Both the position numbers and the translations under genes were made by a program. Positions 5,957 to 55,695 of a stretch of DNA of 64,000 nt are shown piece after piece (the stretch's first letter is position 1; every line of letters begins with the position of its first letter). This DNA is from Neolewinella xylanilytica (GTDB lineage Bacteria > Bacteroidota > Bacteroidia > Chitinophagales > Saprospiraceae). The stretch lies in contig NZ_PTJC01000006.1 in the NCBI RefSeq assembly GCF_002934605.1, positions 248,001-312,000 on the forward strand. Direction: 5' to 3'. A model generated the notes under the pieces. It saw only the letters and a program-made list of their open reading frames with translations, did no database searches and was not told the DNA's origin.

Positions 5957-6724
5957 CTAGTCCCGGTTCAGGACGGCCAAGAGGCGAAGAATTTCCAGAT
6001 ACAACCATACGAGGGTAACGATCAGGCCGACGGCCGTGAACCACTCCATGTACTTCGGTGCCCGCATCTCCGCGCCGCGCTCGATACTATCGAAGTCGAG
6101 GAGCAACATGAGGCTGGCGATACCGATGATCACGACGCTGATGCCGATCCCGATGGGTCCGCCCTGATGCAGGAAGGGAATGCTCATGCCGAAGAAGCCG
6201 AGCACGATGTTGATCATATAGACCAGGAACACCGCACCGAGGGCCATCATCATGCCCGAGCGAAACTTCTGATTGACGGTGATGATGCCGGCCTTATAGA
6301 TAAAGAGCATCATAAACAGCACCGAAATGGTGCCGAGAATTGCGTTAAACACCAGCCCGGTACCGAATCCCGCCGCGTAAATCGCGGTAACCGAGCCCAC
6401 GAAGAGCCCCTCCAGCAGCGAGTAGATCGGTGCCAGGGTTCCGGACATCTGTGGTTTGAAAGACATCACCAGCACGATCGCCAATCCACCCAGGGCGCCG
6501 CCCCACATGAACAGTTGGCTGGGGAAGAAGAACGAGTAAACGGCGGTAACCAGCAACAGGGCGCCGAGGAGGAAGGTCTTATTGACGGCTCCGTCGACGG
6601 TCATGACTTCACTGCCGGAACGTTGAATGACGCCTCCGTCCAGGGGTTGCGAAGACGCTTTGGCCAGCCGTTCCTCACTGAGGAGGGGGTTGCTGGATTG
6701 TCTGAAGCGATCGGATAAGGACAT
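5957..6724 (-). CDS. Bax inhibitor-1 / YccA family membrane protein
   Basis: 255 residues with a soluble ~45-residue N-terminus followed by seven hydrophobic segments. The order LEGLFVGSVTAIY, then GTISVLFMMLFIYKAG, then ISVVIIGIASLMLLLDFDSI and a C-terminal YLEILRLLAVLNRD is characteristic of the YccA/BI-1 group (TMBIM-like). These inner-membrane proteins are linked to calcium/proton leak or to modulation of membrane proteases; the role here is not known. The Asp in LLLDFDSIERG matches the conserved acidic positions of the family pore. A strong hairpin follows the gene. Confidence 0.9.
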   Translation of the reverse strand: MSLSDRFRQSSNPLLSEERLAKASSQPLDGGVIQRSGSEVMTVDGAVNKTFLLGALLLVTAVYSFFFPSQLFMWGGALGGLAIVLVMSFKPQMSGTLAPIYSLLEGLFVGSVTAIYAAGFGTGLVFNAILGTISVLFMMLFIYKAGIITVNQKFRSGMMMALGAVFLVYMINIVLGFFGMSIPFLHQGGPIGIGISVVIIGIASLMLLLDFDSIERGAEMRAPKYMEWFTAVGLIVTLVWLYLEILRLLAVLNRD

Positions 6725-49004: not shown

Positions 49005-50276
49005 CTACAGCGATTTGCGCAGGCCGATCTGCAGGCCACCTAGCCAGTATCGCTCGCTGAGTGGCGCTTCCCGCGGCGTAAAGGAGCCGGGGTAGGACTT
49101 GAAGAACGGTTCCAGCAGCAGTTGGGTGCCGCGATCTTTCCCGACCAGGTAAGTTGTGGTAAGGGAAGCGGTCCAGCCTATGCCTATATTCCTTCGGTAT
49201 TCGTCGCCAAAGGACTGGGGCTCGGCAAAATCCGGATGCAGGTACGCCCCATCCACGGCGGTAAAGAGGTTGATTACCGGCCCGGCGTTCACGTTCAGCC
49301 GCAGGCGGCGCCCGGATACCGCGTAACTGGCCAACAACGGCACTTCCAGCATTCGCAGGTGGTTGTTGCTGCGCATCAGTTCCTTGGCCCCGTTGTTCAT
49401 CCGCTCGTATTCCAGTTGGTTGCGGATGTCGACGTAGGTAAGCCCCGTTAACAGGTGCCACCGCGGCCGGAGCTGGTACCGCAGGCGGGCGCTGAGCTGA
49501 TAGCTGAGTTGGGGGAACTCACTGACCTCCCGGGCACTGCGGAGTTCGCGGGCACCCTCCGCCGTATGGACGAATCGCTGGTGGGCGTAGGCGGCACCTA
49601 GCAGAAATTCCAGCCGTAGCCGGTGGCCACCGGTAGCGCGGAATGCATGACCGGGCCCCGGCAGCGGTAGGGTGGCGAAGACTGCGGTGTCGCTCAGCGG
49701 CTCAACCCGGTCCGTCCGTAGCGTAGGAACGGTGGCGGAAACGGTAATCGGTATCCTGGCGGGCGTCGCGACCGGGGCGGTCCCTTCGCTGGCGGGCGTG
49801 GGGGGGGCGGCGTACCGAGCAGACAGAAGGTTTTCCGTGCCTTGCTGTTCCGGTAGCATCCCGGTCATCAACTCCGGTTCGGCGGGGGGCACGCTGGCCG
49901 GTCCCGTACTCGGGGCGGTGGTCGCGGACGGGGAGATCGTAAAGGGAGTCCGGGTCGCCAGTGGATCGGTTGGGCCGAACGAATCTTGCTCCTGCGGCAG
50001 CGCCCAAAACACGCCCGCGGCGGTACCCAGTAGAAGGAGGGCCAGTACGGCGTACGGCAGCAGGGGAGCGCGCCGGCGGGCGGCCCGGACGCGTTGCCAC
50101 ATACCGGCCGGCACGGGGGGCTGGCGGTTGGCTAAACGATTGGCGAAAAGGCGGTCGATTTCCTCCCCTTCGGGCAGGGCGGTGCGGCGGGCGGCGATTT
50201 TATCCCAGAGTTCCTGGGGTACTTCCGGTTTGCGGTCGCCTAAGCCACCCCGGAACAGTTCGTCGAGGTCGTTCAT
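49005..50276 (-). CDS. Anti-sigma-like N-terminus joined by a linker to an outer-membrane beta-barrel
   Basis: 423 residues. Residues 4-30 (LDELFRGGLGDRKPEVPQEL) and 40-67 (IDRLFANRLANRQPPVPAGM) are two copies of one ~27-residue motif, both ending in W and Arg-rich stretches; they are probably cytoplasmic. A single membrane helix follows (residues 71-92, LLPYAVLALLLLGTAAGVFW). A Pro/Thr/Ala-rich linker runs to about residue 220. The rest is a PorT-type barrel with LRLEFLLGAAYAHQRF and ending GGLQIGLRKSL. ATGA overlap couples it to the ECF sigma gene. It could control that sigma factor from the envelope, but no interaction is proven. Confidence 0.78.
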   Translation of the reverse strand: MNDLDELFRGGLGDRKPEVPQELWDKIAARRTALPEGEEIDRLFANRLANRQPPVPAGMWQRVRAARRRAPLLPYAVLALLLLGTAAGVFWALPQEQDSFGPTDPLATRTPFTISPSATTAPSTGPASVPPAEPELMTGMLPEQQGTENLLSARYAAPPTPASEGTAPVATPARIPITVSATVPTLRTDRVEPLSDTAVFATLPLPGPGHAFRATGGHRLRLEFLLGAAYAHQRFVHTAEGARELRSAREVSEFPQLSYQLSARLRYQLRPRWHLLTGLTYVDIRNQLEYERMNNGAKELMRSNNHLRMLEVPLLASYAVSGRRLRLNVNAGPVINLFTAVDGAYLHPDFAEPQSFGDEYRRNIGIGWTASLTTTYLVGKDRGTQLLLEPFFKSYPGSFTPREAPLSERYWLGGLQIGLRKSL

Positions 50277-50818
50277 ATAGCGATGCGTTTGCGGATTTCG
50301 ATCTGCTGCTGCAGCACCTTTCGGGCCTTCAGCAGCTGGCTGCGGGAGCTGGCTTCCTGGATGCCCAGGGTCTCGCCAATCTCCTTGTGGCTGTATCCCT
50401 CGATGGCGTAGAGGTTGAATACGATGCGGTAACCGTCGGGGAGCTGCTGGATCAGTTGCAGCAATTCCTGCTCGCCCAGGTCTGCGTAGGCGGTGGGTGG
50501 GCCGGCCCCCTCGGGAATGTTATCCAGGCCCGTCTGCTCCAGGCTGAAGCGCTTGCGCTGGTAGGTCTTCAGCGCTACGTTCACGCAAAGGCGGCGGGCC
50601 CAGCCGGCGAAGGAGCCTTTAAATCCATACTTGTGCAGTTTGGCAAAGAGGCGTACGAAGGTGTCCTGCAGCACGTCCTCGGCTTCGGCCTGGTTGCGGC
50701 AGTAGCGCTGGCAGACGCCTAGCAGCAGGGGAGCGTACCGATCGAAGAGGGCGCGCTGGCACCGCTCGTCTCCCCGCAGGGATCCTTCGATCATCTCTTT
50801 TTCCTTCATGCTCAGCAT
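50273..50818 (-). CDS. ECF-type RNA polymerase sigma-70 factor
   Basis: 181 residues; ATG 50809 is a possible later start (MKEKEM). Region 2 is seen in QRALFDRYAPLLLGVCQRYC and EAEDVLQDTFVRLFAKLHKY, then FKGSFAGWARRLCVNVAL. Region 4 carries QLPDGYRIVFNLYAIEGYSH and KEIGETLGIQEASSRSQLLK. There is no region 1 or 3, as in ECF factors. It is translationally coupled to the barrel-linked protein downstream. A TACCTTTA box (50835-50842, minus strand) lies just upstream. Target promoters are unknown. Confidence 0.93.
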   Translation of the reverse strand: MLSMKEKEMIEGSLRGDERCQRALFDRYAPLLLGVCQRYCRNQAEAEDVLQDTFVRLFAKLHKYGFKGSFAGWARRLCVNVALKTYQRKRFSLEQTGLDNIPEGAGPPTAYADLGEQELLQLIQQLPDGYRIVFNLYAIEGYSHKEIGETLGIQEASSRSQLLKARKVLQQQIEIRKRIAI

Positions 50819-50834
50819 TGGCTGGAGGGCAATT

Positions 50835-50842
50835 TAAAGGTA
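50835..50842 (-). promoter_or_regulatory. Candidate -7 box (TACCTTTA) for the ECF sigma gene
   Basis: Minus-strand TACCTTTA matches TAnnTTTG at seven positions, 16 bases before the start at 50818. No TTG was seen at -33. Confidence 0.35.
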
Positions 50843-50916
50843 CGATACCCACCGTGAAGGAAACGTGGCTTGCCGGCAGGACATTATGGCGCCGGCGCGC
50901 AGGTAGAAACCTTGTC

Positions 50917-51927
50917 CTAGAATCTCGGGTCCGCCAGAAACTCCCAATCCGTCAGCGTTTCCAGGAAGGCGATCAGCGCCGTTCGTTCCTGCTCCGTCAG
51001 CCGGATCGGCTCTTCCAGGCGAGGATCCAGGGTAGGGGAGTGGCGGATACCTTCGGCGTAATGCTCCAGAACGGCATCCAGGCTGGCAAGGCGACCGTCG
51101 TGCATGTAGGGCGGTGTCCGGGCGATGTTGCGGAGACTGGGTACCCGGAATTTTCCCCGGTCGGCGGGATTGTGGGTTATGGTTTCCCGGCCGAAATCCG
51201 CGACGTTTCTTTCGTCGAGTCCGTTGTTGCGGTAGCTGTTGTCGGTTTGCAGGGGTCCGGCGTGGCAACCCGCGCACCGATCCACGAAAATTGCTTCTCC
51301 CTGCGCTTCCGTCGCCGAAAATGCCGCTCCGTTGCGCCCCGTGATCACGTCATCGTACTTACTGCGGTCGGACATGAGCATGGCTTGGTACTGACTCAGT
51401 GCCTGCAGCATCAGTCCGGAGGTAACGGTGTCGGTCCCGAAGGCCCGGCGAAAGGCTTCCGGATAGGTGGCGTCCGCCCGGAGACGGTCCACGATGACGG
51501 CGAGGCTATTGTCCAGTTCGACTTCGGATTCGATGGCTGGTACGCCGGCAAAGTCAAGGTGGACCACTCCCCCGTCCCACATGTACTCGCTGCGGAAGGC
51601 GAGGTTGAACAGGCCCGGTGCATTACGCACCCCTACGCGGTCCTCCACCCCCACGCTCAGGCGGTGCTGGGGATCGGCAAAGGCGGTAACCTGCTGGTGA
51701 CAGCTCGAACAGCTGACGGAGCCGTCGCGGGAGAGGCGCGAATCCTCGAAGAGCCGTTTGCCCAGCTTGAAGCCGTCCTCGGTAACGGGGTTGCGGTCGA
51801 AATCGTAGGCGACCGGTGGGAAATGCTCCGGCGAGACAAAGGTATACGGGTCGATGGCCGGACCCGCCTGCTCCCGTTCACAGGCGAACAGGAGCAGGCA
51901 GAAGTACGGTAGTAAATAGCGGTACAT
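50917..51927 (-). CDS. Diheme cytochrome c peroxidase / MbnH-like lipoprotein
   Basis: 336 residues from ATG 51927; the 16 residues upstream in frame precede the signal. A lipoprotein signal (YFCLLLFACERE, Cys16) is followed by two heme c sites, CSSCH (73-77) and CAGCH (218-222), in a MauG/CCP fold with FKLGKRLFEDSRLS, WDGG and FRVPSLRNIARTPPYMHDGR (M275 a candidate axial ligand). It starts seven bases after the MbnP-like gene. In the methanotroph pair, MbnH oxidises a Trp of MbnP to kynurenine to build a copper site, so this enzyme probably modifies its neighbour; a plain peroxidase role remains possible. Confidence 0.88.
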   Translation of the reverse strand: MYRYLLPYFCLLLFACEREQAGPAIDPYTFVSPEHFPPVAYDFDRNPVTEDGFKLGKRLFEDSRLSRDGSVSCSSCHQQVTAFADPQHRLSVGVEDRVGVRNAPGLFNLAFRSEYMWDGGVVHLDFAGVPAIESEVELDNSLAVIVDRLRADATYPEAFRRAFGTDTVTSGLMLQALSQYQAMLMSDRSKYDDVITGRNGAAFSATEAQGEAIFVDRCAGCHAGPLQTDNSYRNNGLDERNVADFGRETITHNPADRGKFRVPSLRNIARTPPYMHDGRLASLDAVLEHYAEGIRHSPTLDPRLEEPIRLTEQERTALIAFLETLTDWEFLADPRF

Positions 51928-51934
51928 CGACAGC

Positions 51935-52801
51935 TTACTGGTGTATGTGGTCGTAGCGGAAGCCGGCCGTGGCATTCCGGATCAGCGGAGTGGCGTCCAC
52001 CGGGCTGTGCATGTTGACGTTGCTCTGTCCGAAATCGATGGTGCCGCCGGGGCCGTCGAAGATTGAGTTGACGTCGAATTCCAGATGAATGGTCGGGCTC
52101 TGATTGTCGTTTACGGTCGCCCGGTCGAGGAAGTCGATCGTCACGCGCTGGTTGTTATTTCGCAGTACGGTACCCTCGATGTCTTTCCAGCCACCGAGGT
52201 GAAAGACCATTCCGTTGGGCGTTCCCGGCACCAGGGAGTTGCCGTGCGCACCACCGGGGCTGTCCGGGCTCTGTCCCTCGAACTTAAAGGCGACGTAGCC
52301 CGCGTTCCAGCTCCAGAACATGCCGCTGTCGACCGGGTCGAGGTCACCGCCGGCCGCCCCCTCCAGTACGTGGGTGCTGTCGACACCGAGGGTGAAGCTC
52401 ATGCTGTTGTAGGTACCGCTCGGCACATCGGCCAGGTCGAAGACCATGCTTTCCGGCCGTGTAGCGTCCACGAGGTGAAAGCCACGGGCGCTGGTGGCGG
52501 TGACGTCGATCGGTTCTTCGTAGCGTTCCCCGTTCGGTCCCTCCAGTACGATCTCGCTGACGTAGTACTTCAGATAGGTGACGCGGTAGGGCTGGTCGAG
52601 GGCGTTGGCGTAGGGGAACTCCGTATCGGTCGTATCGCCGAGGCCAAAGCTCCGTTGGTTGGTCTGCGGTCCGAAGACGTTTTCGAATTCGATCTCCACC
52701 GTGCCGGTATCGCCGGTGGCGGGGGTGATGACGTCGTCGTCGCAGGCCGTAAGGAGTAGCAGGCTAAGAAAAATAAAGAGGTAGGGGAAGGAAGAATTCA
52801 T
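51935..52801 (-). CDS. MbnP-like copper-binding lipoprotein
   Basis: 288 residues. A lipoprotein signal ends at Cys20 (LLLLTACDDD). The body is beta-rich, with RVTYLKYYVSEIVLEGPNGE, then MSFTLGVDSTHVLEGA, and the family's aromatic segment GMFWSWNAGYVAFKFEG (W163 and W165). The C-terminus has MHSPVDA and FRYDHIHQ. In the known MbnP, a Trp-derived kynurenine together with His residues makes a periplasmic copper(I) site. W163 or W165 is the best candidate here. It lies between a CDACGCG barrel gene (20 bases upstream) and the diheme enzyme, the conserved MbnP/MbnH order. Confidence 0.88.
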   Translation of the reverse strand: MNSSFPYLFIFLSLLLLTACDDDVITPATGDTGTVEIEFENVFGPQTNQRSFGLGDTTDTEFPYANALDQPYRVTYLKYYVSEIVLEGPNGERYEEPIDVTATSARGFHLVDATRPESMVFDLADVPSGTYNSMSFTLGVDSTHVLEGAAGGDLDPVDSGMFWSWNAGYVAFKFEGQSPDSPGGAHGNSLVPGTPNGMVFHLGGWKDIEGTVLRNNNQRVTIDFLDRATVNDNQSPTIHLEFDVNSIFDGPGGTIDFGQSNVNMHSPVDATPLIRNATAGFRYDHIHQ

Positions 52802-52821
52802 GGTATGGTAGGTTGATGGGA

Positions 52822-53733
52822 TTAGAAATTGAAGAGAACCGAGGCGGTAGCGCGCAGGCCGGCCTCCGCCAGACCGTCCGAGTAGTGCGATCCCAGCGGC
52901 TGTGCCACGTGCAGGGCGAGGGTGAGGTCGTCGTAGCGGACGTTGACCCCTCCGCTAGCCAGCCAGCTTGCTCCGCCGGTAGCGTGCACCGGCTGCTCGC
53001 CCACCGTAGTGTTGGCGGCGGTATGCTCGCGGCTGATGCCGACGTAGGGGATGATCTTCCAGTGGGGATCGTGGACGAATTGCCCGAAGACGCGGCCGCC
53101 GGCCTCCGTTTCGGCCCCGAAGCGGTAGTAGGGCGAGCTTTTGCCGTAGCGTTGGTGGCGGGCGTTGACGGCCAGCCCCCATTTGCCGTTGGATAGCACC
53201 AGGGCCGTTTGAGCACCCACGCCCAGCGCTCCCTTGCCCGGGGTAAAGTTGTCGGGCAGATAGTGGCTGTCGAGCAGGTCGTCTTCGTACCGCCCGGTGG
53301 GCAGGGAGGCGGTCAGGCCGGCTTCCCAGTATACCGACCAAAGGCCGACGCCGAGGGGCTGCCCGTCCGTAAGGACATAGGATAGTCCCAGCCGTACGTC
53401 TCCCAATCCACTCAGCGACTGATCGCCCGCCGGACCGCGGCGCAGGTTGTGTCGGTAGGGTAGGAAGACGTCGGCGCGTACGCGGAAGAGGGGCTCGTAG
53501 CGCAGAAAGAGCTCGGTGGTGTGGAAGACGTCCTCCGTCCCCGTGTACTCCCCGCTGGTCAGGCGGCTGCGGAAGGGAACGTACCCGTGGGTGAGCCCCA
53601 CGTAATTGTTGCGGTACACGGAGAGGAGGCCGAAGCCACCGCCGCCGATGCCACAGCCGCAGGCGTCGCAGGCGTAGGCAGCCGCGGGCAGGACACCGGC
53701 GATCACCAGTGCCGCGAGATAGCGGTAAAGCAT
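52822..53733 (-). CDS. Outer-membrane barrel protein with an N-terminal CDACGCG motif (copper-cassette partner)
   Basis: 303 residues from ATG 53733; the longer frame to 53823 precedes the signal peptide. Right after the predicted cleavage (PAAAYACDACGCGIGGGGFG) lies a three-Cys motif, C22, C25 and C27, likely to bind metal. Then come alternating barrel strands (VGLTHGYVPFRSRLTSGEY, YEPLFRVRADVFLPYRHNL, WKIIPYVGISREHTAAN) ending with a terminal Phe (ATASVLFNF). It is cotranscribed with MbnP/MbnH-like genes, so it may pass copper across the outer membrane. This is inference from position and the Cys motif. Confidence 0.78.
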   Translation of the reverse strand: MLYRYLAALVIAGVLPAAAYACDACGCGIGGGGFGLLSVYRNNYVGLTHGYVPFRSRLTSGEYTGTEDVFHTTELFLRYEPLFRVRADVFLPYRHNLRRGPAGDQSLSGLGDVRLGLSYVLTDGQPLGVGLWSVYWEAGLTASLPTGRYEDDLLDSHYLPDNFTPGKGALGVGAQTALVLSNGKWGLAVNARHQRYGKSSPYYRFGAETEAGGRVFGQFVHDPHWKIIPYVGISREHTAANTTVGEQPVHATGGASWLASGGVNVRYDDLTLALHVAQPLGSHYSDGLAEAGLRATASVLFNF

Positions 53734-53900
53734 AAAAATCAGACTTGAAATTAAAAGGAACCGCGCACCGGAACGATCCGTCGCGGAAGGACGGGCACGG
53801 AATTGCCGGAACTCATACGGCACGCTCGTAGCACTCCGCCAGCATTAGCAAAGGCTATCCGACCAGTGCGGCCGGGCGGGCATACGGGCGTACGGCTAGC

Positions 53901-54287
53901 CTACGCGAGTGGTGGCTGCAGACTAGCCCGACGGTGATCGCCGCCTTGGAGGACGGGTTCCGTGCGGGGTCGAACGAGCCGCGACGGCGCCGGTGGCATG
54001 GGGCGCGCCGGTAGCACGGTCAGGCGGACGGGAAGATAAACGGACTGGGCCGGCGAGGAAGCCCCGGGGGCGAGTTCGTCCTTGCCGGTATCGTCGGTCA
54101 GGCCCGCGTAGAGGTCCGGCATCTGGCAGGAGCCGTAGCACATGGGGATATCTTCCAGGGCCCGGTTGACGCAGAACAGCTCGGCGAAGCTTTCGCGGGC
54201 GTGTTGCTGCCACTGGATCATGACGGCCTCGCTTCCCGCCTGGAGCAGGAGAAGGGCGACAAATGATATGGACAGCAACTGCTTCAT
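53901..54287 (-). CDS. Small Cys-motif secreted protein, copper-cassette first gene
   Basis: 128 residues. A signal peptide (LLSISFVALLLLQAGSEA) is followed by LFCVNRALEDIPMCYGSCQM, where C39, C50 and C54 are arranged as Cx10Cx3C. Bacteroidota have many small proteins with a similar FCxN..CxGxC motif near copper or iron genes; they are uncharacterised. The C-terminus is Pro/Arg-rich and disordered-looking. It lies 167 bases before the barrel gene in the same orientation. It could be a copper chaperone or sensor, which is only inference. Confidence 0.65.
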   Translation of the reverse strand: MKQLLSISFVALLLLQAGSEAVMIQWQQHARESFAELFCVNRALEDIPMCYGSCQMPDLYAGLTDDTGKDELAPGASSPAQSVYLPVRLTVLPARPMPPAPSRLVRPRTEPVLQGGDHRRASLQPPLA

Positions 54288-54295
54288 CGGTACCG

Positions 54296-54303
54296 CAAAG
54301 GTA
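54296..54303 (-). promoter_or_regulatory. Bacteroidota -7 box (TACCTTTG) before the copper cassette
   Basis: Minus-strand TACCTTTG is an exact TAnnTTTG match eight bases before the start at 54287, which would make a very short leader. No TTG was seen at -33. Confidence 0.45.
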
Positions 54304-54321
54304 AAAAGTTTTGCGCGGAGT

Positions 54322-55695
54322 CTACTGCAGTTCCGCCCCTTTTCGTACGCTGAAAGCCGTCAAATCCCGAACAATGTCAGGGTGCCGATCCGCCAAGTTC
54401 TTCGCTTCGCCCGGGTCTTCCCGCAGATTGAAAAGCGCTAGACCGATGGAATCCTGCCGGTACTTCACGGGCATGCCTCCGGTGGCCGGTGACTGGTCCC
54501 CCAGGGTCGAGTAGCGGTGGGGTAAATGCAGTTTGAACCGGCCGTCCGCGCTCACCACCGCCTGCAGGTCGTCTAGCCAGTAGATGGCGTAGGGTTCGGG
54601 GGAGGGACCGGCGGAGATGCCGAGGAAATCGTCCAGTCGTTCGTGCCCGTCCAGCGTCCGGTCGGGTAGGGGAGCGTCGACGAGTTTAGCCAGACTGGGG
54701 AGGACGTCGATCGTCATCAGGTTCGCGACGCTTACTTTGCCCGCCGGCGTATGGCCGGGCCAGTGGGTGATCAGCGGAACCCGCACGCCGCCTTCGAAGC
54801 TGGTAGCCTTGCCCTCGCGGAAGGGGGTACGCCCGGCGTGGTCGCCGTAGCTGAGCCAGGGACCGTTGTCGCTGCTGAAGATGATGAGGGTATTTTCCGC
54901 CATTCCCTTGGCCGTGAGCTTATCCCGGATCTCCCCGACTCCGGCATCGATCTCGGATATCACGTCGGCGTACAGCCCCTGGCCGGTGGGGTCGAGGTAA
55001 TCGGGATCTTCGGCCAGGGGCACGTGGGGCAGGGAATGGGCGAGGTAGAGAAAGAGCGGACCCCCGGCCGGATCGTGCTCGTCGATGACCTTCACCGCGG
55101 TTTGATTGTACAGGCGGTTGAGTTGGGTGAAGTCGGACAGGCTATCGAGCAGCATCGTATCCCGTAGGAGCGGCACGCGGGCGGGGAAATACGTTTGGGC
55201 CCACTCCTGGGGGTGACCGCCCCACATGTCGTGGCTGTAGGGGATGCCCAAATAGCTGTCGAAACCCTGGTTAGTGGGTAGGTAAGGGGGGAAGTGCCCG
55301 AGGTGCCACTTGCCGACCATCGCCGTGCGATAGCCTTCGGCCTTCAGTACTTCCGCTACGGTGACCTCCTCCGGCGCCAGTCCGGCCTTGGCGGTATGGT
55401 CCAGGGCGCCGCGTAGCCCCACCCGGTTCGGGTAGCAGCCCGTCATCAGGGCCGCGCGGCTGGCGGTACATACGGCCTGGGCTACCCGGAAATCGGTGAA
55501 GCGGACTCCCTCCTCCGCGAGGGCGTCGAGGTGGGGCGTCGTGACGTGGTCGCCGCCGTAGGCGCCGATATCCGCGTAGCCCATATCGTCGGTGAAGATG
55601 AGGACGATGTTCGGCAGCTCCACCGCCGGGGAGACCGAAGCGGCCGGCCGACCGCAGGCCAGCAGGAGGGGAAGTAGGTAGCCGATTGCGCGCAT
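54322..55695 (-). CDS. Sulfatase (arylsulfatase-like, FGly type), lipoprotein
   Basis: 457 residues from ATG 55695; the frame to 55839 contains a non-signal stretch. A lipoprotein signal (GYLLPLLLACGRP, Cys14) is followed by NIVLIFTDDMGYADIGAYGG (metal Asp36/37), then the activation motif CTASR at 76-80, in which Cys76 would become formylglycine, and KWHLGHFPPY, then FIFSSDNGPWLSYGDHAGR-like sites. It hydrolyses sulfate esters, probably in the periplasm or at the surface. Divergent from the GH9 gene over 100 bases, so it may help degrade a sulfated polysaccharide. Confidence 0.94.
   Translation of the reverse strand: MRAIGYLLPLLLACGRPAASVSPAVELPNIVLIFTDDMGYADIGAYGGDHVTTPHLDALAEEGVRFTDFRVAQAVCTASRAALMTGCYPNRVGLRGALDHTAKAGLAPEEVTVAEVLKAEGYRTAMVGKWHLGHFPPYLPTNQGFDSYLGIPYSHDMWGGHPQEWAQTYFPARVPLLRDTMLLDSLSDFTQLNRLYNQTAVKVIDEHDPAGGPLFLYLAHSLPHVPLAEDPDYLDPTGQGLYADVISEIDAGVGEIRDKLTAKGMAENTLIIFSSDNGPWLSYGDHAGRTPFREGKATSFEGGVRVPLITHWPGHTPAGKVSVANLMTIDVLPSLAKLVDAPLPDRTLDGHERLDDFLGISAGPSPEPYAIYWLDDLQAVVSADGRFKLHLPHRYSTLGDQSPATGGMPVKYRQDSIGLALFNLREDPGEAKNLADRHPDIVRDLTAFSVRKGAELQ

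Follow-up and report, generated by a model that had tools for sequence, protein, structure and literature searches.

To our knowledge, copper acquisition by Bacteroidota is poorly understood. The described systems closest to the genes discussed herein are MbnP and MbnH of Methylosinus trichosporium (structures 7l6g and 6e1c, the latter of which we take to be MbnH), and in a kynurenine study in PNAS in 2021 MbnH reportedly oxidizes a Trp of MbnP to kynurenine, making a copper site. The pair is conserved far beyond the methanobactin producers, as Kenney and Rosenzweig stated in 2013 (PMC3621798). Herein, a four-gene locus of Neolewinella xylanilytica is described, which lies in a 64,000-nucleotide (nt) stretch of DNA, termed the window (positions 248,001 to 312,000 of contig NZ_PTJC01000006.1, assembly GCF_002934605.1), of a 5.38 Mb genome in 13 contigs that is 98% complete. 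An MbnP/MbnH-like pair is accompanied there by an outer-membrane channel, and the first of the four genes likely encodes a CutF/CruR-type regulatory leader.

Several other systems are relevant to the comparison. In methanotrophs, MopE/SACCP and CorA/CorB combine a kynurenine copper site with a diheme partner and a copper-repressed operon (PMC3912023, PMC3621798); the latter source describes the sequence as not markedly similar to MbnP. Among short Cys-motif leaders, CutF-like proteins have already been counted in bulk in Bacteroidota, and the stem-loop mechanism of CutF-like leaders in general was expected to work probably with short spacers only (PMC9973294). CruR-headed operons with MbnPH-like genes were reported mainly for Proteobacteria, and Rho-dependent termination was proposed for CruR (PMC9426467). 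A 2025 survey of RAPP/RGPP leaders did not find any for copper-related genes in groups such as Bacteroidota, and placed TonB-linked RAPP/RGPP leaders in Gram-negative bacteria generally (PMC12992588).

The four genes and the named motifs, as proposed in an earlier sequence-only reading of this DNA, were all recovered at their positions on the minus strand:
53901-54287, minus strand: leader open reading frame (ORF), CutF/CruR-like candidate, 128 amino acids (aa), with a hydrophobic N-terminus, C39, C50-x-G-x-C54 and PP at 125-126.
53734-53900, minus strand: leader-barrel spacer of 167 nt, from the leader stop to the barrel start.
52822-53733, minus strand: outer-membrane beta-barrel channel of 12 strands, 303 aa, with CDACGCG (C22, C25, C27) at the likely mature N-terminus.
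51935-52801, minus strand: MbnP-like lipoprotein, 288 aa, with lipobox C20, W163-x-W165, H201, H239, H285, H287 and a C-terminal DHIHQ.
50917-51927, minus strand: MbnH/MauG-like diheme enzyme, 336 aa, with CxxCH at 73 and 218, Tyr290 and W117.
The gap between barrel and MbnP measures 20 nt, and 7 nt separate the MbnP stop from the MbnH start. The CDACGCG of the barrel sits after a hydrophobic N-terminal stretch, and the lipobox C20 is the only Cys of the window MbnP. Such an arrangement of four genes with these motifs is far beyond chance.

The assignment of the MbnP/MbnH-like pair, which had been made from the letters alone, is right, although not new. The window MbnP scored 144.4 bits against PF20243, whose curated cut-off is 27, and shows the MbnP fold, with the columns of W163, W165 and H201 aligning with those of 7l6g. 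For the diheme protein, TIGR04039 was the top-scoring NCBIfam model, and the score of 151 bits against PF03150 together with the CxxCH sites at 73 and 218 placed it in the MauG/CCP diheme superfamily. Its Tyr290 occupies the position of MauG Tyr294, which we take to be the axial ligand, as in enzymes of the MauG/MbnH type, and peroxidases carry Met at that axial position; among 139 relatives the residue is Tyr in 135 and Phe in 4. The loci gathered contain 143 adjacent MbnP-MbnH pairs, and W163 and H201 are each kept in 138 of 142 MbnP. The window pair is very likely homologous to MbnP/MbnH, and kynurenine is fairly probably formed on the window MbnP. The sequence-only reading had also presented the same chemistry without methanobactin genes as its own inference. 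The absence stands, with 0 matches of MbnB (TIGR04159) in this 98% complete genome; the inference itself was not new, given the spread of the pair already described (PMC3621798). The loss of Trp in MbnP without MbnH gave 5 of 71 cases, too few to use, with 3 partial matches, and one of the five is the window itself, miscounted when an antisense ORF displaced its MbnH in gene calling.

Further MbnP-like proteins were observed in the same genome. A second MbnP/MbnH pair is located at G000:C3:221802-222365 (L002 and L056 at 6001-6564), and in its MbnP FWGEQTRY replaces FWSW, so that the first Trp is kept and the second absent. A weak third MbnP-like protein (26 bits) at G000:C1:1962383-1962826 (L003, L097) had no adjoining MbnH seen. 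In other loci (L053, L075, L078, L082, L085, L089, L090 and L096), two tandem diheme enzyme genes follow MbnP; there may be a second substrate, or the two enzymes may divide the work.

Conservation of the neighbourhood, proposed earlier as a check, was borne out in two sets. A profile search of the phylum yielded 71 PF20243 matches in 51 of 198 genomes; the barrel shares the locus in 22 of the 71, from a barrel list entered by hand, and the leader lies upstream of at least 24, a lower bound, as gene calling overlooked some leaders that the leader profile search found. In addition, 80 named loci were fetched with an MbnP query, and MbnP was called in 77; most of the sequences behind the query came from loci with a barrel, which biases this named set. 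Among the 77, the leader is present in 62, MbnH in 74, the barrel in 66 and all four genes in 59, the order being leader-MbnP-MbnH-barrel in 55 of the complete sets and that of the window, leader-barrel-MbnP-MbnH, in 4. The closest named MbnP relatives belong to Neolewinella lacunae (61% identity) and N. aurantiaca (60%; Saprospiria, Lewinellaceae). Length-based gene calling overlooked the barrel of L042, some leaders and several MbnP/MbnH frames, and the MbnP and barrel calls behind the co-occurrence counts were corrected with the reading frame taken from each match and with the hand-entered barrel list.

The profile of the leader gave 106 matches in 79 of the 198 genomes, and in 40 MbnP-adjacent leaders, with 11-40% identity to that of the window, C39, C50, C54, P125 and P126 are invariant and N41 and G52 nearly so. 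A PP within the last 12 residues was found in 156 of 157 members, compared with 18 among 555 other ORFs that were 90-200 aa long, a count that is circular, since the model used includes the PP columns. For this reason, the profile was cut right behind the Cys motif and run blind on loci picked by MbnP alone, whereupon terminal PP was present in 65 of 65 leader matches and in 9 of 282 control ORFs. The distance from the last Cys to PP is 67 ± 2.6 residues (n = 155), and 70 in the window leader. A length of 67-70 residues roughly spans ribosome plus translocon, so that in a stalled chain the cysteines would lie close to the inner membrane, on its outer side. Spacers to the next gene are typically long in this family (median 129 nt, n = 126). 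No Pfam or NCBIfam family matched the window leader, and membership in a known family of either collection was ruled out for the 40 members as well, which gave only scattered one- or two-member matches. In terms of the CutF-like description in PMC9973294, the window leader is shorter than 150 aa (128), has PP in its last 15 residues (125-126) and has a same-strand gene within 1000 nt (167 nt); for the signal peptide, a hydrophobic N-terminus was judged by eye. The small Cys protein had been read earlier as a copper-handling component; the leader signature (PP in 65 of 65) and the RNA signal described below suggest that it is probably not such a component, but a regulatory leader.

This RNA signal emerged from a consensus fold of 11 out of 17 Pedobacter-type loci, in which the HPP/stop region of the leader pairs with the mbnP start region. 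The consensus structure showed little covariation, with two-sided change in 4 of 27 pairs, and duplex energies over many loci were therefore used. The end of the leader, from -45 to +25 relative to its stop, was scored against the start region of the next gene (-45 to +20), with start codons chosen by a simple hydrophobicity rule and, in the first test, with partners from other loci matched in G+C content as the background. The mean z was -0.97 (p 7e-13, 143 loci), or -0.94 (p 4e-12, 137 loci) for spacers of at least 45 nt; these p values are optimistic, because the loci are mutually related. Shifting the leader window 120 nt upstream gave a mean z of 0.03, shifting the start window 120 nt into the gene gave 0.01, and 455 other neighbouring gene pairs gave -0.17 (p 0.32). 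By spacer length, the mean z was -0.62 for 25-70 nt (n = 15, p 0.08), -1.35 for 71-120, -0.99 for 121-200 and -0.70 for 201-450; since the signal is kept at long spacers, local hairpins alone are no explanation. Against dinucleotide shuffles, the leader/start mean was -1.07 versus -0.25 (p 0.29) for 200 of the 455 other pairs, a difference with p 3e-8; with the leader window shifted upstream, the mean was +0.17, slightly in the opposite direction (p 0.01). The complementarity is thus a property of the family, and the window locus taken individually is not convincing. Unusually stable folding of the window spacer was ruled out (z -1.64, with 14 of 200 shuffles equally good).

The barrel had been proposed as the outer-membrane partner of the pair, and both its fold and its distribution point in that direction. 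Its structural model displays 12 strands, and the Cys motif precedes strand 1 in a part of the N-terminus that was modelled with low confidence. The nearest folds are those of FapF (E 3.6e-11) and of the COG4313 channel (2.8e-9); on the strength of this model it is a FapF/COG4313-type channel. A TonB receptor was ruled out by the 12 strands. No Pfam family, PF13557 included, matched the window barrel, PF13557 was matched by 10 of 48 barrel sequences, and C22 and C25 are invariant in all 48. Across the 71 phylum MbnP matches, barrel and C-terminal His tail (defined as [DHNEA]H, any residue, H or E) occur together in 17, barrel alone in 5, tail alone in 0 and neither in 49 (p 3e-12); the corresponding counts are 17, 5, 2 and 47 for barrel versus H239, and 17, 2, 0 and 52 for H239 versus the tail. 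The five barrel-bearing exceptions without the tail have CDFCN-type barrels.

An MbnP tree was built with the His columns excluded from 134 rows, namely 56 of the 71 phylum matches (those with W-x-W), 77 of the 80 named ones and the window again, whose protein is therefore present twice (as window and as L100). Barrel and His trait change 14 times each on this tree, and over 133 rows both are present in 82, neither in 43, the barrel only in 7 and His only in 1. On the starred branches, 7 independent pairs differ in the barrel, and His differs in the same way in 5.5 of them on average and in the opposite way in none. The third barrel Cys does not strictly track His: in barrel rows both are seen in 76, His without the third Cys in 6 (in one of which no barrel sequence was called), neither in 5 and Cys only in 2. 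The barrel is hence linked to the His-bearing MbnP subclass more firmly than by gene order alone, and a joint function of barrel and MbnP at the outer membrane is about as likely as not. Leader-plus-barrel arrangements without MbnP exist, and the barrel is therefore probably copper-linked in its own right.

Away from MbnP, 71 of the 106 leader matches are located; 60 of these loci were fetched, the 11 lowest-scoring being left out, and 59 first downstream genes were scanned after L275, at a contig end, was dropped. A TonB plug domain was found in 34 of the 59, YtkA in 7 and PF13557 in 7, and the TonB-copper model TIGR01778 matched 24 (best 1.2e-82). In the host genome itself, a search for an OprC-type TonB-copper receptor returned only matches below the cut-off. 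In seven loci (L241, L243, L245, L270, L272, L282 and L297), the leader is followed first by a lipoprotein-like gene (255-282 aa) and then by one of TonB size (664-767 aa), and their identity to L241 suggests that these are the seven YtkA (PF13115) matches. In the distant phylum members L285, L298 and L300, the leader is followed by a barrel with ACAACGC near the N-terminus and, in 2 of the 3, by a TonB-sized gene, with no MbnP in the stretch fetched. In L071, L072 and L074, MbnP and MbnH come after a leader, a gene for 307 aa and another of TonB size, and L071 and L072 have a second leader directly 5' of MbnP.

Building on the computed homologies, folds, operon conservation, leader signature, leader/start complementarity and barrel/His co-occurrence and co-change, we favor, on balance, an operon for copper acquisition that a nascent chain switches in response to copper. 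The leader would be exported, and the cysteines of its CxGxC would be out of the ribosome once the terminal Pro-Pro, about 70 residues on, is reached. Copper is the presumed ligand: at low copper the ribosome would stall at PP, and copper binding would lift the stall, a direction that we infer from CruR. The stalled ribosome would cover the 3' end of the leader and free the complementary start of the next gene, turning the operon on; alternatively to the helix, Rho-dependent termination may operate as in CruR. The MauG-like MbnH would then oxidize a Trp of MbnP (W163, with H201 as the likely partner) to kynurenine and make a copper site, and the barrel with its periplasmic CxxCxC may work with a second MbnP site, in which H239, H285 and H287 would act as one, so that barrel and His site would probably pass copper across the outer membrane, the transport and its direction being conjectural. 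The fullest version, a TonB-free two-part outer-membrane copper import in which a kynurenine-matured three-His lipoprotein hands over to the CxxCxC of a FapF-type channel and the leader, sensing copper beyond the inner membrane, controls the next gene through a long-range mRNA helix across long spacers, is unlikely to hold in all its parts.

The observations that weigh against the copper-switch reading are gathered here together with the rival explanations. The small Cys protein might be a stable secreted copper-binding protein taking part in copper handling, as its signal-like N-terminus and three conserved Cys would allow. Nor does it clearly head its transcript: a sulfatase gene (PF00884, 54322-55839, minus strand) ends 34 nt 5' of it on the same strand, and the leader may therefore not be the first gene of its own transcript in the window; among 64 named leaders, the upstream gene is on the same strand in 42 and within 60 nt in 8. 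However, beyond the Cys and terminal PP only Asn and Gly are nearly invariant in this family, the Cys-to-PP spacing is narrow, the family also heads other outer-membrane genes, and a structural protein would not be expected to give an mRNA signal at the 3' end, which renders this explanation very unlikely. The window leader also departs from the known leaders: its PP is preceded by LQ, not by the usual FH or FR; instead of the CruR pattern (CXXC and RAPP, 45 apart) it has CxxxC and LQPP at 70 residues; a search with the 40 leaders at E 0.1, run with no positive control, matched 9 families in all, and DUF2946 was not one of them; and the switch direction of CutF is opposite to that assumed here from CruR. 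A leader could, moreover, work via Rho-dependent or other transcription termination, with the RNA complementarity not being the switch. The CruR precedent (PMC9426467), the long window spacer (167 nt; 162 in B. pertussis) and the weak complementarity at the window locus (z -1.05 versus partners, -0.42 versus shuffles) favor this view, and the two closest relatives reach -0.43 and -0.28 against shuffles, yet -1.88 and -2.54 in the partner test. It is opposed by the family-wide complementarity of leader end and start, which is not seen in the controls and persists at spacers of 121-450 nt. Termination is a possible outcome, though the less expected one, and the helix as the switch at the window locus itself is put forward tentatively, as somewhat short of an even call.

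Regarding the pair, MbnH might act on another substrate or as a plain peroxidase, leaving MbnP without a kynurenine copper site. Both proteins indeed remain under the strict equivalog cut-offs (MbnP 38.2 bits versus 140 for TIGR04052; MbnH 205 bits versus 362.85 for TIGR04039), and the window MbnP, which has C20 only, lacks the four-Cys motif that the 7l6g record mentions and that is presumably tied to TIGR04052. The 143 adjacent pairs with nearly constant W163 and H201 and the Tyr at the axial position of MbnH argue in the other direction, and such a role is quite unlikely. The barrel, in turn, could lie outside copper uptake, as a channel for efflux or for general passage or as a porin that hitch-hikes: it belongs to a broad porin-like superfamily, as the PF13557 matches indicate, and FapF is a secretion channel. 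The two invariant cysteines of the barrel, its repeated co-change with the MbnP His residues and a leader kind shared with TonB receptors speak against such a place outside copper uptake, which we regard as somewhat unlikely. Three further points weigh against the main reading: the gene order of the window is a minority one, since in most relatives the barrel follows MbnH; the 7 independent starred pairs are what the tree test draws on, with a median p of 0.03 (range 0.03-0.22); and haemin receptor models match 29 of the 59 first downstream genes, so that the copper assignment of leader-headed TonB receptors is soft.

Around the locus, a stretch at 49005-50818 on the minus strand, 98 nt downstream of MbnH, encodes an extracytoplasmic function sigma factor as well as a protein in which an outer-membrane-barrel domain was weakly matched. 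L101, the nearest relative, has a gene on the opposite strand where the window has the sulfatase. Scanning of 50800-54400 found no promoters and 3 terminator-like sites versus 2.3 in shuffles, and a known RNA element in the window was ruled out by 0 Rfam matches at the gathering score.

Three points are believed to be new: that the first gene is a candidate for a leader sensing copper ahead of Bacteroidota MbnPH, that leader and start are complementary over long range in its family, and that a channel co-changes with the MbnP His residues. Among the hits listed, the literature search showed no report of a leader-MbnPH association, the helix or the barrel/His link; none of its queries targeted the RNA helix or the Cys-motif barrel as such, and most subscription papers were outside its scope. 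A phylum-wide gene set is thereby provided with testable roles, comprising a translational copper switch, a matured copper lipoprotein and a co-changing channel.

Compared with Methylosinus trichosporium MbnP/MbnH, the PF20243 fold, the aligned W-x-W and His and the adjacent diheme MauG-like enzyme are alike, whereas the window system lacks an MbnB match in the genome and the four-Cys motif, and additionally possesses the C-terminal His motif and the linked barrel and leader. With MopE/SACCP and CorA/CorB it would share a kynurenine copper site and has the diheme partner in common. The 12-strand fold is that of the FapF and COG4313 channels (5o67, 4rl8; PF13557), to which an N-terminal CxxCxC and a genomic tie to MbnP are added here. 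Like Bordetella pertussis CruR, a DUF2946 protein (PMC9426467), the leader has a Cys motif and terminal PP and heads copper operons including MbnPH-like genes; unlike CruR, it is without a DUF2946 match, RAPP or CXXC. As H or R precedes PP in 112 of 156 leaders here, a RAPP/RGPP search would miss them. Rhodobacter capsulatus CutF and the CutF-like proteins (PMC9973294) have the same size below 150 aa, CxxxC, PP near the C-terminus and a same-strand gene within 1000 nt, but the Cys-to-PP distance is 45 residues in CutF and about 67 here, and the present leaders head MbnPH/barrel genes, presumably for uptake, with long spacers bridged by complementarity. As this complementarity spans spacers of more than 120 nt, it offers an answer to the short-spacer limit considered likely for CutF-like leaders in that paper.

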